Shown here: in pieces, positions 40,580 through 46,544 of the stretch
Layout: each line of letters starts with the position of its first letter
Position numbering within the stretch: position 1 is the first letter of the stretch
Origin: an actinobacterium LLX17
Lineage (GTDB): Bacteria; Actinomycetota; Actinomycetes; Propionibacteriales; Nocardioidaceae
Reading direction: 5' to 3'
DNA: 64,000 nucleotides
Assembly: GCA_000471045.1 (NCBI GenBank)
Contig: KI301992.1
Coordinates: forward strand, 932,568 to 996,567
Made by a program: the position numbers and the translations under genes
Notes under the pieces: model-generated
What the model saw: the letters and a program-made list of their open reading frames with translations, nothing else
The model's database searches: none
Told to the model about the DNA's origin: nothing

Positions 40580-41476
40580 GTGAGCAACGAGAACAGCACC
40601 GTCGGTACGTCCCGGGTCAAGCGCGGCATGGCCGAGATGCTCAAGGGCGGCGTCATCATGGACGTCGTCGACGCCACGCAGGCCAAGATCGCCGAGGACG
40701 CCGGAGCCGTCGCCGTCATGGCGCTCGAGCGCGTCCCCGCCGACATCCGCGCCCAGGGTGGCGTGGCCCGTGCCAGCGATCCCGACCTGATCGACGGCAT
40801 CATCGAGGCCGTCTCGATCCCCGTCATGGCCAAGGCCCGCATCGGTCACTTCGCCGAGGCGCAGATCCTGCAGAGCCTCGGCGTCGACTACATCGACGAG
40901 TCCGAGGTCCTCACGCCGGCCGACTACGCCAACCACATCGACAAGTGGGCCTTCAACGTCCCGTTCGTCTGCGGCGCCACCAACCTGGGCGAGGCGCTGC
41001 GTCGGCTCACCGAGGGCGCGGCGTTCATCCGCTCCAAGGGCGAGGCCGGCACCGGCGACGTCTCGAACGCCGTCACCCACATCCGCAAGATCACCGGTGA
41101 GATCCGCCGCCTCCAGGGCCTGCGCGACGACGAGCTGTATGTCGCGGCCAAGGAGCTGCAGGCGCCCATCGAGCTGGTCAAGGAGGTCGCCGAGCTCGGC
41201 AAGCTCCCCGTGACGCTGTTCACCGCTGGCGGCATCGCCACGCCCGCCGACGCCGCGCTGGTCATGCAGCTCGGCTCCGAGGGTGTCTTCGTGGGCTCGG
41301 GCATCTTCAAGTCCGGCAACCCCGCGGAGCGCGCCGAGGCGATCGTCAAGGCCACCACGTTCTACGACGATCCCGATGTCGTCGCCAAGGTCTCGCGCGG
41401 CCTGGGCGACGCGATGGTCGGCATCAACGTCGACGACATCCCCGAGCCGCACCGCCTCGCCGAGCGCGGTTGGTGA
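40580..41476 (+). CDS. pdxS: Pyridoxal 5'-phosphate synthase subunit PdxS
   Basis: 298 residues. [17 protein letters not shown] (with the catalytic Lys) and [10 protein letters not shown] (second Lys) are diagnostic, as is [16 protein letters not shown] near the phosphate site. Makes PLP from ribose-5-phosphate, glyceraldehyde-3-phosphate and ammonia. GAGGAAG precedes the GTG start. A strong terminator follows the gene; the partner glutaminase gene pdxT lies 4.5 kb downstream, on the other side of the SipW island. Confidence 0.97.
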
Positions 41477-41903: not shown

Positions 41904-42437
41904 ATGAAGAAGTCCACCAAGGGCCTTGTCGCGGCGGGCGCTGCGGCGACCCTCCTGCTCGGCGGCGCCGGCACCCTCGCCTACTGGAACGCCACCGACG
42001 GCATCGACGGCGGCTCGATCGACTCCGGCAGCCTGGCGCTTCTGAACGAGGCGGGCACCTGGGAGCTCAACGGCGTGTCCGTCCTCGACCCGACCACCGT
42101 GGTGCTGGTTCCGGGCGATGAGCTCGAGTTCGTGGGCACCTACGAGATCGACGCGACGGGCGACAACCTGGAGGCCACGGTCAGCGTCACGGGCGGCGCC
42201 GAGTCGGGCACCTTGGCCGACGACGTGACCACCACCACCGCGTTCACCCTCGCGGGCACCGCGCTCACGGGCACCGACACGATCGACGAGACCAACGATG
42301 GCGAGACGCTCGGCGTGACCATCTCGATCGACTTCCCGTTCGGCACGACGGCCGACAACCTTTCTCAGTCGAGCACCCTCGACCTGAGCGCCATCAACGT
42401 CGTCCTGACGCAGACCGACGCCAGCCCGGTCGTCTGA
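41904..42437 (+). CDS. Alternate-signal (SipW-cognate) secreted protein
   Basis: 177 residues. Begins with a Lys-rich n-region, a hydrophobic core and GAGTLAYWN, the alternate cleavage-site form found on substrates of SipW-type peptidases (TasA/camelysin-like and the actinobacterial RER_14450-type family). After cleavage near residue 26, the mature part is acidic, Thr/Gly-rich and predicted beta-sandwich with no Cys. It is likely an exported surface or fibre protein. GGGAGAA selects the start. A hairpin follows before the peptidase gene. Confidence 0.85.
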   Translation: MKKSTKGLVAAGAAATLLLGGAGTLAYWNATDGIDGGSIDSGSLALLNEAGTWELNGVSVLDPTTVVLVPGDELEFVGTYEIDATGDNLEATVSVTGGAESGTLADDVTTTTAFTLAGTALTGTDTIDETNDGETLGVTISIDFPFGTTADNLSQSSTLDLSAINVVLTQTDASPVV

Positions 42438-42506: not shown

Positions 42507-43097
42507 ATGACCTCGACTCCGTCCGAGACCCAGCCCCGCAAGGGCAGTCCGCTCCGCTTCGCGTGGCGCGTGATGGTCTGGACGCTGCTGCTGGCCCTGG
42601 TGCTGGTGCTGGTCGCCGCGGTCCTGCTGCCCCGAGCAGCGGGCGCGACGCCCTACACCGTGCTCACGGGATCGATGCAGCCGGACTATCCGCCCGGAAC
42701 GCTCGTGGTGGTCAAGCCGGTCGAGATCGACGACATCGCCATCGGCGACGTCATCACCTACCAGCTCGAGTCAGGGGAGGCGACCGTGGTCACACACCGC
42801 GTCATCTCCGTGGGCACGAGCCTGGGCGGGTCGGGTGAACGCACTCTTCGCACCCAGGGAGACGCGAACACGGCGGCCGACCAGCAGCCAGTCCAAGAGG
42901 TCCAGGTCAAGGGCCGCCTCTGGTACGCGGTGCCCTACCTGGGTCACGTCAACACCTGGATCTCCAGCTCCACGCGGCAGGTCGTCACGCTCGGTGTCGC
43001 GGCCGCGCTGGTGGCCTACGCAGCATTCATGTTCGGGTCGACGCTCGTCGATCGACGCACCAGTCGAGACCGGAAGGGAGGCGCGCACACCGCATGA
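42507..43097 (+). CDS. SipW-type (ER/archaeal-type) signal peptidase I
   Basis: 196 residues with an N-terminal (about 22-42) and a C-terminal (about 160-182) membrane helix. The catalytic Ser56 (TGSMQP), His97 (VTHRVI) and Asp119 (QGDAN) are those of ER/archaeal-type peptidases, which lack the Lys of ordinary SPase I. It should cleave alternate signal sequences such as those encoded on both sides. Second gene of the island; its stop overlaps the next start (ATGA). Confidence 0.9.
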   Translation: MTSTPSETQPRKGSPLRFAWRVMVWTLLLALVLVLVAAVLLPRAAGATPYTVLTGSMQPDYPPGTLVVVKPVEIDDIAIGDVITYQLESGEATVVTHRVISVGTSLGGSGERTLRTQGDANTAADQQPVQEVQVKGRLWYAVPYLGHVNTWISSSTRQVVTLGVAAALVAYAAFMFGSTLVDRRTSRDRKGGAHTA

Positions 43098-43807
43098 ACA
43101 CCTCGCGACGCACGCGCCCGGCCCTGATGGTGACGGCGCTGCTCGCTGTCCTGCTCTGGCCGGTCCCGGCGCACGCCGCCGACGAGATCGGCTTCAGCGT
43201 CGACGGTGTCGCTTGGGCCCCGGCCTTGGCACAGCCCTTGTTCGCCCCCGAGTTCCGTTGGGTCCCGGGCGACTCGAGGACGGCCACCTTCTTCGTGCGC
43301 AACCAGGGCCCGACCTCGGCCGTCATGACCATCGAGGCGCGCAGCGCAGACGCCGACGGGCTGCTCAGCCACGGCGACATCCACCTGCACGCCCGCGTCG
43401 ACGGGGGATCGTGGGTGCCTCTCCGGAACGGGGTCGCCAGCGCCTCACTGACGGGCGAGGCCTTCGGCGCCGGGGACGTGGTGCAGATCGAGATCAACGC
43501 GGCCTTCGACCCGACGTCGGTCAACCAGTCGCAGAGCAAGAGCCTGCCCCTGACGTTCGAGGTCACCCTCGCCGACGCGGCGTCGGTCCCGGCGCCCGAG
43601 GGTCCCGACAGCGAGATGCCCGGTGTCGAGACGCCTGGTTCCGGCGGGACCGCAGCAGACCCGGCTCGCGGGGGCGTCCTCCCCGGCACTGGCGCGACGG
43701 TCGGACCCGGACTCCTGCTCGCCGCTCTCGCGCTCTGCGCCCTCGGCGCCGTCCTGATCGCCCGGCGGTCGTCCGACGACGACGCCCAGAACGGAGCCAC
43801 CTCATGA
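43094..43807 (+). CDS. LPxTG-anchored secreted protein of the island
   Basis: 237 residues. A conventional Sec signal peptide with AHA|AD cleavage near residue 28, a beta-rich domain (res 30-160), a Pro/Gly-rich linker, and a C-terminal sorting signal: LPGTG at 196-200, a hydrophobic stretch and a basic RRS tail. It should be attached to the cell wall by a sortase, which is not encoded here. Unlike its neighbours it does not need the SipW peptidase. Overlaps both flanking genes by 4 nt (ATGA). Confidence 0.85.
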   Translation: MNTSRRTRPALMVTALLAVLLWPVPAHAADEIGFSVDGVAWAPALAQPLFAPEFRWVPGDSRTATFFVRNQGPTSAVMTIEARSADADGLLSHGDIHLHARVDGGSWVPLRNGVASASLTGEAFGAGDVVQIEINAAFDPTSVNQSQSKSLPLTFEVTLADAASVPAPEGPDSEMPGVETPGSGGTAADPARGGVLPGTGATVGPGLLLAALALCALGAVLIARRSSDDDAQNGATS

Positions 43808-44487
43808 GCCGCCACAGCGCCACGTCCGCCGGACGGCGCCGTGCGTCGCGCGGCGCGCGCCGCCGGTTCGGGTCCGTGCAGATTCGTCTGCTGCTGTGCC
43901 TCGGCGTCTTCGCGTTGCCCACCGGGGTGGGCACGATGGCCTACTGGACCGACACTGCCGTCATCGACTCGGGCCCGATCCAGTCGGGCAGGCTCGACCT
44001 CACGGTGGGCACCACGACCGAGAACAGCACGAATCTCGCGGGGCAGGGTGGCACGTACGAGTACTCACAGCTGACGATCGCCAACCTGGTCCCCGGCGAG
44101 AGCATTGCCCGGCCGTTCGCCGTACACAACGCTGGCACGGTCGGTTTCTCCTACAACGGCAGCATCTCGACGCTCAACAACAGCTTGGTGGCCGCGAACA
44201 GCGGTCTGCGCGTGCAGATCTTTCCCGACAGCACGCCGTCTGAGACCGGTACCGAAGCCGCGGGCACCCGGTCCGGCACCTGCAGCGGCACGGCCGTCAG
44301 CAATCAGCTGGTCAGCACGACCACGAACACCGTCAACATCCACCCGACGAACCAGGTCCTGGCCGCCGGCGCCACGCGCATCTACTGCGCCCGCATCTTG
44401 CTCGAGGGCACCTCGCCCAACTCGCTGCAGGGGCTGGCGACCGAGCTCATCATCGGCCTGAACGCGAATCAGCTGGGTGCGCCGTGA
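43804..44487 (+). CDS. Second alternate-signal (SipW-cognate) protein
   Basis: 227 residues. A very basic n-region of about 25 residues, a hydrophobic core and GVGTMAYWTD (cleavage near residue 47), again the SipW-type site. The mature part is Thr/Ser/Asn-rich beta-sandwich with two Cys residues, resembling camelysin/TasA-like subunits. Start ATG overlaps the previous stop, and its end overlaps the next GTG, so all are coupled. Probably a second exported subunit. Confidence 0.82.
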   Translation: MSRHSATSAGRRRASRGARRRFGSVQIRLLLCLGVFALPTGVGTMAYWTDTAVIDSGPIQSGRLDLTVGTTTENSTNLAGQGGTYEYSQLTIANLVPGESIARPFAVHNAGTVGFSYNGSISTLNNSLVAANSGLRVQIFPDSTPSETGTEAAGTRSGTCSGTAVSNQLVSTTTNTVNIHPTNQVLAAGATRIYCARILLEGTSPNSLQGLATELIIGLNANQLGAP

Positions 44488-45917
44488 GTCGCCGGATCGC
44501 CAACGTGCTGCTGTGGATCGGTGCGTCCATCGGTGCGCTGAGCGTCGTCGCAACGTTACTGGTCGCCCTGCTCGGCTACGTGCCCCTCGTCTTCACGTCC
44601 GGCTCCATGTCGCCAGAGATCTCCGCCGGTGCGCTTGGTGTGGCCGAGACTGTTTCGGCTGATGAGGTCGAGGTGGGCGACGTGGTCAGCGTCGAGTCCG
44701 CCAAGGGTGCGCGCGTCACGCACCGGATCGTCGAGATCGCCCCGGGTGGAGACGATGGCGCCGCGGTCCTCACGCTGAAGGGCGACGCCAACGAGACTGT
44801 CGATGCCGACCCTTACGCCGTGACCGAGGTGGACCGGGTGGTGTTCTCGGTGCCGCTGCTCGGCCGGGTGCTGACCTGGCTGGCATCCCCAGCTGCGTTG
44901 TTCGTGGCCGGGGTGGTGGCGGCCGGGGTCGTGTTCTACATCATCTCTTCGCGCCGCGGCCCGGGGTCGCGGGACGGCCATCGGCACGGTGGCGCGCGCC
45001 GCAGGGGCAACGACGACGGCGAGCGCGGCGGCCGACGCCGCGCAGGCGCCACGCGTCAGATATCTCTGGCTCTCGCCTCCGTGACGGTGCCCGCCATGGT
45101 GCTCGTGGCCCCAGCCCAGCCCACGATGGCGGCCTTCAACGATCTGGGCGCCACGGTCACGACGTCCGGCTTCGTCTCCCATCGGGTGATGCAGCCCGCC
45201 ACGGCCGCGTGTACGTCGAGCGGACTGTCGGTCACGGTCTCGACGTCGGTCACCGATCCGCGGTACACCTACTGGGCTCGTGCGTTCAACGCATCGGGCG
45301 CGCCGGTGAGTCAGTACAAGGCAATGACTGGCACCGGAACGACCCGCAGCTCCACTTTCGGGCTCACCGACTTCAACGTCAGCATCGACGTGGGCGCCAC
45401 TTATCAGCTGCGTGTCTACGCGCGTGTGGGCAACACGACCTGGGAGTCGACCGACTTCCGTCGACACCCGTTCAACAGGACAACCCTGCTCATGAGCTGT
45501 GGCACTGCGCCCACAACGCCGACGATCAACTTCACCGAGCCCATCGATGGAGCCCGGCGCACCCTCACGACGACGACGGGCCGTGTGAACCAGTTCTGTG
45601 GTTCCGCCTACGGCTCGTCTGCTGCAGCGGCCTGTGGCACCGTCAGCGACGACGGCAGCATTGCCAGCGTCGAGTACATCCTGCAGCGCAGCGGCTTCCT
45701 CGTCGGCACGCGGTGCTGGGACGGCAGCAGTTGGGTCCTGTCCTGCACGTACCGCCCCGCGGGTCGCAACACGACGACCAACCCGCAGCGGTGGTCGGTG
45801 CCCCGCACGACAGACCCTTACACGGCCTACGCGGACCACACGCTCACCATCAGGGCCACCGACAACGAGGGTCATGTGACCGTCACGATGATCCGCTTCA
45901 CGACCGCCCTACTGTGA
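44484..45917 (+). CDS. Fusion: SipW-type signal peptidase plus alternate-signal substrate domain
   Basis: 477 residues in two parts. Residues 1-155 are a second SipW-type peptidase: helix 10-35, Ser41 (SGSMSP), His80 (VTHRIV), Asp101 (KGDAN) and a helix at 135-155. After a basic Gly/Arg-rich linker (156-190) comes a second hydrophobic segment (193-213) ending in TMAAFND, which is itself an alternate signal-type cleavage site, then a 258-residue beta-rich Thr/Ser domain with several Cys. I read one frame with no stop or shift. The enzyme may release its own C-terminal domain. Last gene of the island; starts with GTGA overlap. Confidence 0.8.
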   Translation: MSRRIANVLLWIGASIGALSVVATLLVALLGYVPLVFTSGSMSPEISAGALGVAETVSADEVEVGDVVSVESAKGARVTHRIVEIAPGGDDGAAVLTLKGDANETVDADPYAVTEVDRVVFSVPLLGRVLTWLASPAALFVAGVVAAGVVFYIISSRRGPGSRDGHRHGGARRRGNDDGERGGRRRAGATRQISLALASVTVPAMVLVAPAQPTMAAFNDLGATVTTSGFVSHRVMQPATAACTSSGLSVTVSTSVTDPRYTYWARAFNASGAPVSQYKAMTGTGTTRSSTFGLTDFNVSIDVGATYQLRVYARVGNTTWESTDFRRHPFNRTTLLMSCGTAPTTPTINFTEPIDGARRTLTTTTGRVNQFCGSAYGSSAAAACGTVSDDGSIASVEYILQRSGFLVGTRCWDGSSWVLSCTYRPAGRNTTTNPQRWSVPRTTDPYTAYADHTLTIRATDNEGHVTVTMIRFTTALL

Positions 45918-45944: not shown

Positions 45945-46544
45945 GTGCCTGCTTCCCCCACGATCGGCGTGTTCGCCCTGCAGGGTGACGTCCGTGAGCA
46001 CCTGTACGTCCTCGAGCGCCTCGGGGCTCGCACCCTGAGCGTGCGGCGTCCTGAGGAGCTCGCACAGTGCGACGGGCTCGTGCTGCCGGGGGGCGAGTCG
46101 ACGACCATGGCCAAGCTGGCCGTCACGTTCGAGCTCTTCGAGCCGCTGCGCGACCGCATCGCCGGCGGCATGCCGACCTTCGGCACGTGTGCGGGCATGA
46201 TCCTGCTGGCCGACCGCGTGCTGGACGGCGCCGAGGGCCAGGAGACGTTCGGCGGGCTCGACGCCACCGTGCGCCGCAACGCCTTCGGCCGTCAGGTGGA
46301 CTCCTTCGAGGGTGACGTCGACATCGCCGGTCTGGACGAGTCGGTCCACGCGATCTTCATTCGCGCGCCGTGGATTGAGGAGGCGGGCGATCGTGTCGAG
46401 GTGCTCGGCGAGGTGGAGGTGGCCGGGACCACTAAGATCGTCGGGGTCCGGCAGGGTCACCTGATGGCGACGTCGTTCCACCCCGAGGTGGGCGGTGACG
46501 ATCGAGTGCACGGCTTGTTCGTCGAGCAGGTCCGTCGCACGTAG
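45945..46544 (+). CDS. pdxT: Pyridoxal 5'-phosphate synthase glutaminase subunit PdxT
   Basis: 199 residues, class I glutamine amidotransferase. Nucleophile Cys82 in GTCAGM and the His179/Glu181 pair (HPE) complete the triad; the GGESTTM oxyanion region is present. Supplies ammonia to PdxS. Starts at GTG with TACCCT (45933-45938) six bases upstream, an independent leaderless promoter, as expected if the island was inserted between pdxS and pdxT. Confidence 0.96.

Follow-up and report, generated by a model that had tools for sequence, protein, structure and literature searches.

The DNA analysed here, hereafter the window, is a stretch of 64,000 nucleotides (nt) from the actinobacterium LLX17 (Nocardioidaceae; assembly GCA_000471045.1, contig KI301992.1, positions 932,568-996,567 of the forward strand), and it carries a gene in which a SipW-like signal peptidase is continued, within a single open frame, by a predicted internal SipW-type signal segment and secreted tail (Table 1). 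The gene starts with GTG, its first 4 nt (GTGA, 44484-44487) lying within the end of the gene before it, and encodes 477 amino acids (aa) before its own stop. A first-pass annotation of the same DNA had described the frame as uninterrupted, and no internal stop is present; the catalytic Ser41, His80 and Asp101 that it named are all found at those residues, and the motif TMAAFND, which it took for an alternate-type cleavage site, occupies residues 214-220 at the end of the third hydrophobic segment. Its figure of 258 residues for the secreted-like tail is correct when counted from Asp220, the tail being 261 aa long from the predicted cut at Ala217. Third-position G+C stays between 0.80 and 0.88 across every segment of the gene.

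Table 1. Features of the fusion gene, followed by the neighbouring genes (positions are those of the window; TM, transmembrane segment)
Feature	Positions	Strand	Remarks
Fusion gene: SipW-like signal peptidase I, internal SipW-type signal segment and secreted tail, 477 aa	44484..45917	+	one uninterrupted frame; signal function and release predicted
TM1, residues 2-30	44487..44573	+	predicted helix
Catalytic domain, residues 31-135	44574..44888	+	SEC11C-like model; invariant Ser/His/Asp
Codons of Ser41, His80 and Asp101	44604-44606, 44721-44723, 44784-44786	+	invariant, 69/69 aligned
TM2, residues 136-157	44889..44954	+	predicted; model helix 136-156
Basic linker, residues 158-190	44955..45053	+	predicted cytoplasmic; model confidence low
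TM3, internal signal-peptide-like hydrophobic segment, residues about 191-212	45054..45119	+	model helix 191-206
SipW-type cleavage site, T214-M-A216 / A217-F-N-D220	45123..45143	+	predicted; predicted cut 45131/45132
Tail, residues 217-477 (261 aa)	45132..45914	+	predicted to be released
Tail domain 1, residues about 233-335	45180..45488	+	fibronectin-III-like beta sandwich (model)
Tail domain 2, residues about 342-477	45507..45914	+	Ig-like beta sandwich (model); present in longer-tailed aligned relatives
pdxS	40580-41476		flanks the operon upstream
Alternate-signal exported protein, TIGR04089 family ('TasA-like')	41904..42437	+	TLA/YWNA signal; TIGR04089 138.5 bits (cut-off 60), TIGR04088 29 bits (cut-off 19)
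Free SipW-like signal peptidase (SipW1)	42507..43097	+	TIGR02228 88.1 bits
Surface protein, LPGTG-like C-terminal anchor	43094..43807	+	all model matches below cut-off
Exported protein with SipW-type signal, possibly TasA-like	43804..44487	+	TMA/YWTD; TIGR04088 26.1 bits (cut-off 19), TIGR04089 35.4 bits (below cut-off 60)
pdxT	45945-46544		flanks the operon downstream

The N-terminal 157 residues constitute a complete signal peptidase I of the endoplasmic reticulum (ER)/SipW-like kind. The NCBIfam signal peptidase I model TIGR02228 matches residues 4-137 of the window protein (57.1 bits, above the cut-off of 51.85), and all 29 aligned proteins, that of the window among them, match it at E≤1. 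Against the Bacillus SipW equivalog NF046067 the score is 48.8 bits, far under the cut-off of 190, so that the designation 'SipW-like/ER-type' fits and 'SipW' in the strict NCBI sense does not; the SipW-type peptidase of the first-pass annotation is upheld in the broader meaning. The Pfam family Peptidase_S26 remains under its cut-off on the window protein (14.1 against 22.9 bits), and a match of Pfam Herpes_US8A on the peptidase half (E 0.0094), also below cut-off, was taken as compositional.

An AlphaFold2 model was built on an alignment of 29 sequences, the window protein and 28 relatives (mean predicted local distance difference test, pLDDT, 83.0; predicted template modelling score, pTM, 0.44), and it contains helices at residues 2-30, 136-156 and 191-206, the catalytic beta domain and two beta domains in the tail, with pLDDT below 50 at residues 165-191 and 207-227. 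Human SEC11C is the top VIA-align match of residues 1-137 (7p2q_A, Z 11.8, root-mean-square deviation (rmsd) 4.5, 135 aligned), and a SEC11-like fold is also indicated by phmmer (E 0.0015). Structure prediction of the C-terminal part, which the first-pass annotation had proposed, yields two folded beta domains: residues about 233-335 align with fibronectin type III (Fn3) chains such as 1tdq_A (Z 10.1, rmsd 2.2, 92 aligned), and residues about 342-476 with immunoglobulin (Ig)-like domains (2ca4_A, Z 9.9, rmsd 2.7, 92 aligned; 9kvu, Z 9.2, rmsd 2.6, 92 aligned). Conserved cysteines, Cys243 and Cys339, lie in and after the first of these domains. By sequence, the tail of the window protein has no Pfam match at E≤1, a single NCBIfam match below cut-off (choice_anch_G, E 0.044) and a best E of only 0.038 among solved structures.

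The same architecture, with the tail in frame, is present in all 28 complete relatives that were aligned with the window protein, and a further locus (L032) is ended by the edge of its stretch after the site. The window protein matches 112 of 197 genomes of the family at E≤1e-8, unfused SipW1-type peptidases included. Loci were collected with fused queries, either the window protein or its relative L019, and the absolute frequencies given below therefore lean toward the fused form; five loci that duplicated later-fetched ones were removed before a tree was built, and the score cut-offs of 150 and 85 were set after the score distribution had been viewed. Among 73 peptidase genes located beside the same 43804-type gene, window included, 71 encode at least 270 aa and are thus fused by length, shorter products being counted as unfused here and in the peptidase classes below. 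These fused loci come from different genomes, several in one contig. A stop or frameshift splitting the gene in relatives, specified beforehand as the sign of an artificial fusion, was not found as a general feature. Two positions are exceptional: L107 shows neither a third segment nor a tail in any of the forward frames and pdxT follows, loss and assembly error being indistinguishable in this case, and in L119 (4322 onward, - strand) an unfused peptidase overlaps by 4 nt a separate 350-aa protein with a SipW signal.

When peptidases were classified by score, the 102 high-scoring ones comprised 74 that are fused and have a SipW-type site (a class assigned with a motif rule, which the alignment column counts below did not use), three fused to an LPxTG-like protein, 24 unfused and one odd case (L149), and all 74 low-scoring peptidases, the class to which SipW1 belongs, were unfused by length (<270 aa). 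In L149 (5255, - strand) the linker runs straight into a tail-like domain, with no third hydrophobic segment and no site between them; the tail would then be expected to lie in the cytoplasm, or the gene may be decaying. Eight short copies of 160-179 aa lack the tail (L075, L079, L081, L083, L087, L088, L108 and L113), and all of them except L113 directly follow a fused copy. They form one clade inside the fused group in the tree, and for this reason their state is read as loss of the tail; the tree backbone is weakly supported in several places, which leaves the number of tail gains and losses uncertain.

L142 and L146 show the same kind of fusion in another family of the order, as do L147 and L148 in two more families of the class. 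A phylum-wide draw of 396 genomes gave matches in 23, and in the 13 loci from this draw that lie outside the class (L125-L137) no fusion was recognised, the peptidases there appearing unfused; one long frame in L133 was read as spurious. In some of these 13 loci, an exported-looking protein adjoins the unfused peptidase.

The cleavage site was assessed in 69 proteins (score ≥150, length ≥270 aa, window included) that were aligned without reference to any motif. The columns of Ser41, His80 and Asp101 are invariant (69/69), and the P1 column, corresponding to Ala216, contains Ala in 68 of the 69, with a gap in the one protein that lacks the third segment. After removal of that sequence (L042) and filtering at <70% peptidase identity, 52 non-redundant proteins remained, with Ala at P1 in 52/52, Thr, Ala or Ser at P3 in 49/52, Trp, Phe or Tyr at P2' in 51/52 and Asp at P4' in 48/52. 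Pairwise identity averages 0.48 over the peptidase and drops to 0.28 in the linker and 0.19 in the third segment; it is 0.51 at the site and 0.23 across tail domain 1. Between residues 158 and 342, no columns are better conserved than those of Ala216 and Cys339. At the level of sequence, this conservation of the site is the pattern of selection for cleavage. The window site likewise combines the features of a SipW-type substrate, namely small residues at P1 and P3, an aromatic residue at P2', Asp at P4' and a hydrophobic segment after basic residues. A study of Bacillus (PMC10269814) gives TWA-AFND as the P3-P4' sequence at which SipW cuts TasA, and states that the residues around this site make a poor LepB substrate, an aromatic P2' residue disfavouring LepB.

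Comparison with the signals of other exported proteins points in the same direction. A hidden Markov model (HMM) of 122 signal peptides from neighbouring exported proteins, selected by a motif filter, matches 23 of the 69 fused proteins (i-E<0.01), every time within their internal segment, and the 82 control peptidases gave no match. In the HMM check suggested by the first-pass annotation, the curated alternate-signal model TIGR04088 leaves the window protein itself unmatched; it hits an internal stretch of the relative L026, residues 193-224, scoring 23.3 bits where the cut-off is 19. That the third segment is SipW-signal-like is supported by comparison, through site conservation, the neighbour-signal HMM and the TIGR04088 match in L026.

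A basic N terminus inside, two preceding transmembrane segments and a basic linker lead to a predicted topology in which the linker is cytoplasmic, the third segment runs N-in/C-out and the site lies on the catalytic side. A site on the cytoplasmic side, the other outcome named in advance as contradicting the first-pass annotation, is not borne out by this prediction and was rejected on the count of membrane segments and the linker charge. Of the 68 fused proteins, 56 have a linker with net positive charge, which would fit a cytoplasmic loop ahead of an N-in/C-out segment, and the other 12 do not. In the window gene, ATG, GTG and TTG are all absent in frame over residues 151-199, and the first such codon lies at residue 200, inside TM3. 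With no start codon between TM2 and TM3, a tail with its signal can be produced from the window gene solely as a fusion, and an internal translation start yielding a free tail was accordingly rejected for this gene. A candidate internal start is likewise absent from 46 of 68 fused genes.

The fusion is the last gene of an operon whose conserved order is a TasA-like protein, a free SipW-like peptidase, an LPxTG-like protein, a second TasA-like protein and the fusion; from 42507 onward, each gene overlaps the next by 4 nt. This conserved TasA-like operon, absent from the first-pass annotation, points to a likelier role for the fusion. Upstream of 71 fusions, a TIGR04089-type gene is present in 68, a free peptidase in 68 and an LPxTG-like gene in 58, and both flanking genes, pdxS upstream and pdxT downstream, are found at 47 of the 71, window included. 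The 4-nt overlap of the fusion with its preceding gene recurs in 30 of 61 measured cases. The three exported chains of the operon have a common site pattern, T-[LM]-A/[YA]-[WF]-[NT].

For the product of gene 43804, a family profile compared with solved structures gave five weak matches, the best of them to FAP74, an unrelated protein (E 0.00055), followed by AbpX 9sj2 (E 0.0086), 5of1 (E 0.06), 8aur (E 0.078) and AbpX 9rhp (E 0.38). The entry 5of1 is labelled Spore coat-associated protein N, which we take to be TasA, and 8aur is labelled Major biofilm matrix component. Pfam Peptidase_M73 (camelysin) reaches 21.1 bits, under its cut-off of 22.5. With a structural model of this product (pLDDT 70.9), Foldseek placed the archaeal cannula protein CanA first (E 5.4e-4, the sole row below 0.001) and the bundling pili 7ueg at rank 12 (E 0.005) among rows that are mostly viral jelly-rolls, and in the VIA search, again mostly viral jelly-rolls, no row reached Z 8. 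These matches are leads toward a TasA/AbpA-like fibre, not proof of one.

The enzyme and the type of signal are already known, and their union in one conserved chain appears to be the new part. ER-type signal peptidases I (TIGR02228; Bacillus SipW, SEC11) share with the fusion the Ser-His-Asp residues, with His and not Lys, an N-terminal transmembrane segment, the SEC11-like fold and an operon with alternate-signal proteins. However, the free peptidases of this survey mostly end shortly past TM2, whereas the fusion runs on into the signal segment and secreted domain, and it also differs from Bacillus SipW in scoring under the cut-off of the latter, as noted above. To our knowledge, signal peptidases are generally free enzymes that act on separate preproteins, and no description of a SipW-type peptidase fused to a substrate was found in searches of open-access PubMed Central papers. 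The SipW-dependent exported proteins (TIGR04088/TIGR04089; TasA, CalY/camelysin, BsaA) resemble the fusion in their hydrophobic segment and TxA/x-[FWY]-x-D site, and TMA-AFND of the window is nearly the TasA sequence (PMC10269814); in the fusion, however, the signal is internal, behind the peptidase rather than N-terminal, and the mature part is predicted to be Fn3/Ig-like.

The gene organisation also has counterparts. The tapA-sipW-tasA operon of B. subtilis, sipW-tasA/calY with capP in B. cereus (PMC13082335) and sipW-bsaA in C. perfringens (PMC7395162) likewise place a dedicated SipW-type peptidase beside fibre proteins and accessory factors; the operon studied here departs from them in having two peptidases and, in addition, an LPxTG-like protein, with the second peptidase carrying the proposed accessory part in the same chain. 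In B. cereus, TasA and CalY are reported to form mixed filaments under the control of the accessory protein CapP (PMC13082335), and in C. perfringens the exit of BsaA from the cell and its polymerisation are reported to need SipW (PMC7395162).

A second kind of fusion was encountered in L050, L051 and L143, where a SipW-like peptidase is similarly joined to a downstream exported protein, but the partner is LPxTG-like, the site as read from the sequences is of AxA type, and the proteins belong to a separate tree branch that mixes fused and unfused forms. Because this second, separate fusion has unfused near relatives, the joining of enzyme and cargo probably arose more than once. In the related loci L049 and L052, the latter a near relative of L051, the peptidase and the LPxTG-like protein are separate genes with a 4-nt overlap.

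The reading that we consider probable is that the protein is a natural enzyme-plus-preprotein precursor with an internal SipW-type signal, in which a cut after Ala216 frees an Fn3/Ig-like accessory of a TasA-like fibre. We infer the topology, the cut, the identity of the cutter and the role of the tail as follows. The chain would insert with its catalytic domain outside, and the third segment, in N-in/C-out orientation, would cross the membrane in the role of an internal SipW-type signal peptide. A SipW-type peptidase would cut after Ala216, most likely the protein's own catalytic domain, in the same chain or in a sister copy, with free SipW1 of the operon as a full alternative. The Fn3-like and Ig-like tail would thereby be freed. 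By analogy with the fibre systems mentioned above, the two TasA-like proteins of the operon may assemble into a TasA/AbpA-like surface fibre, with the tail as an accessory part that acts as its adhesin, nucleator or cap. Synthesis as one chain would give each peptidase exactly one tail and bring the substrate to the enzyme. The suggestion of the first-pass annotation that enzyme maturation is thereby coupled to release of the substrate is speculative. The more far-reaching proposal, that the whole clade consists of obligate self-processing precursors, each joined from the outset to a preprotein of the type that it cuts, which release their tails after Ala216 and so supply a TasA-like fibre with one accessory subunit per peptidase, and that similar fusions have more than one origin, is plausible but is put forward tentatively.

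Several observations weigh against the precursor reading. TIGR04088 matches neither the window protein nor its 72-aa segment and, at E≤1, is matched by just 2 of the 29 aligned proteins, its position having been located for L026; the window protein is also not among the 23 matched by the neighbour-signal HMM, and the case for its signal rests on its site and on its relatives. The region of the cleavage site has pLDDT below 50, too low for the model to bear on docking of the site into the catalytic centre. An in-frame start for a separate tail exists in 22 of 68 fused genes, five of them with a Shine-Dalgarno-like sequence. The relation of the 43804 product to TasA is weak, Fn3/Ig folds are common and do not alone point to a fibre, and the locus set was gathered with fused queries. 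Self-cleavage is moreover not required, since SipW1 is encoded upstream of 68 of the 71 fusions.

This last point bears on a different division of labour, in which free SipW1 cuts the tail of a genuine fusion in trans, the fused peptidase acts on other exported proteins, and the joining serves mainly for co-delivery. The near-constant presence of SipW1 and the site pattern common to the three exported chains would both suit such a scheme; the retention of the catalytic residues of the fused enzyme in all 69 proteins and the tethering of the substrate to it by a short linker speak rather for cleavage by the fused enzyme, although both are compatible with cutting in trans all the same, and we regard the trans scheme as rather unlikely. 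Less probable still is that the tail stays uncut, TM3 serving simply as an anchor by which the Fn3/Ig domains are displayed next to the peptidase, for example to keep fibre subunits in place for processing. The signal models do not match the segment of the window protein, no free tail is known, and Fn3 and Ig domains are common binding modules; however, an anchor needs no invariant Ala at P1, aromatic residue at P2' and Asp at P4' between stretches of 19-23% identity.

As to the joining of two genes by a sequencing or assembly error, nothing in the window itself speaks for it, and L107 and L119 show that unfused forms exist. An artefact or frameshift was nevertheless rejected because the fusion recurs by length at 71 of 73 homologous operon positions, from different genomes, and the steady third-position G+C of all gene segments also argues against it. 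The fusion is natural and conserved and a sequencing artefact very unlikely, the probability that we would leave to an artificial junction of two genes being close to nil.

A conserved chain that contains both the enzyme and a substrate-type signal offers a ready system for studying how an ER-type signal peptidase recognises the site that it cleaves, and whether such an enzyme is able to cut in cis. Two-peptidase operons of the TasA-like surface-fibre kind, present in many related genomes, could also show how the numbers of fibre subunits are matched.

Some further variation was noted among the loci. The operon is wholly or partly duplicated in tandem, with diverged tails, in L068, L070, L071, L079, L081, L084, L087, L088 and L108. 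Very long tails occur in L026 (493-2529, a 679-aa protein), which has an OmpL47-type domain match, and in L152 (5467-7410, a 648-aa protein), apparently a similar repeat protein. In L089, L091, L094 and L097, free SipW1-type peptidases, 233-254 aa long, carry a third hydrophobic segment near the C terminus. The genome of LLX17 itself encodes a third SipW-like peptidase (L003, C1:761554-761973; 226 aa, unfused), and 16 nt further on lies a gene for an exported-looking protein of 431 aa.

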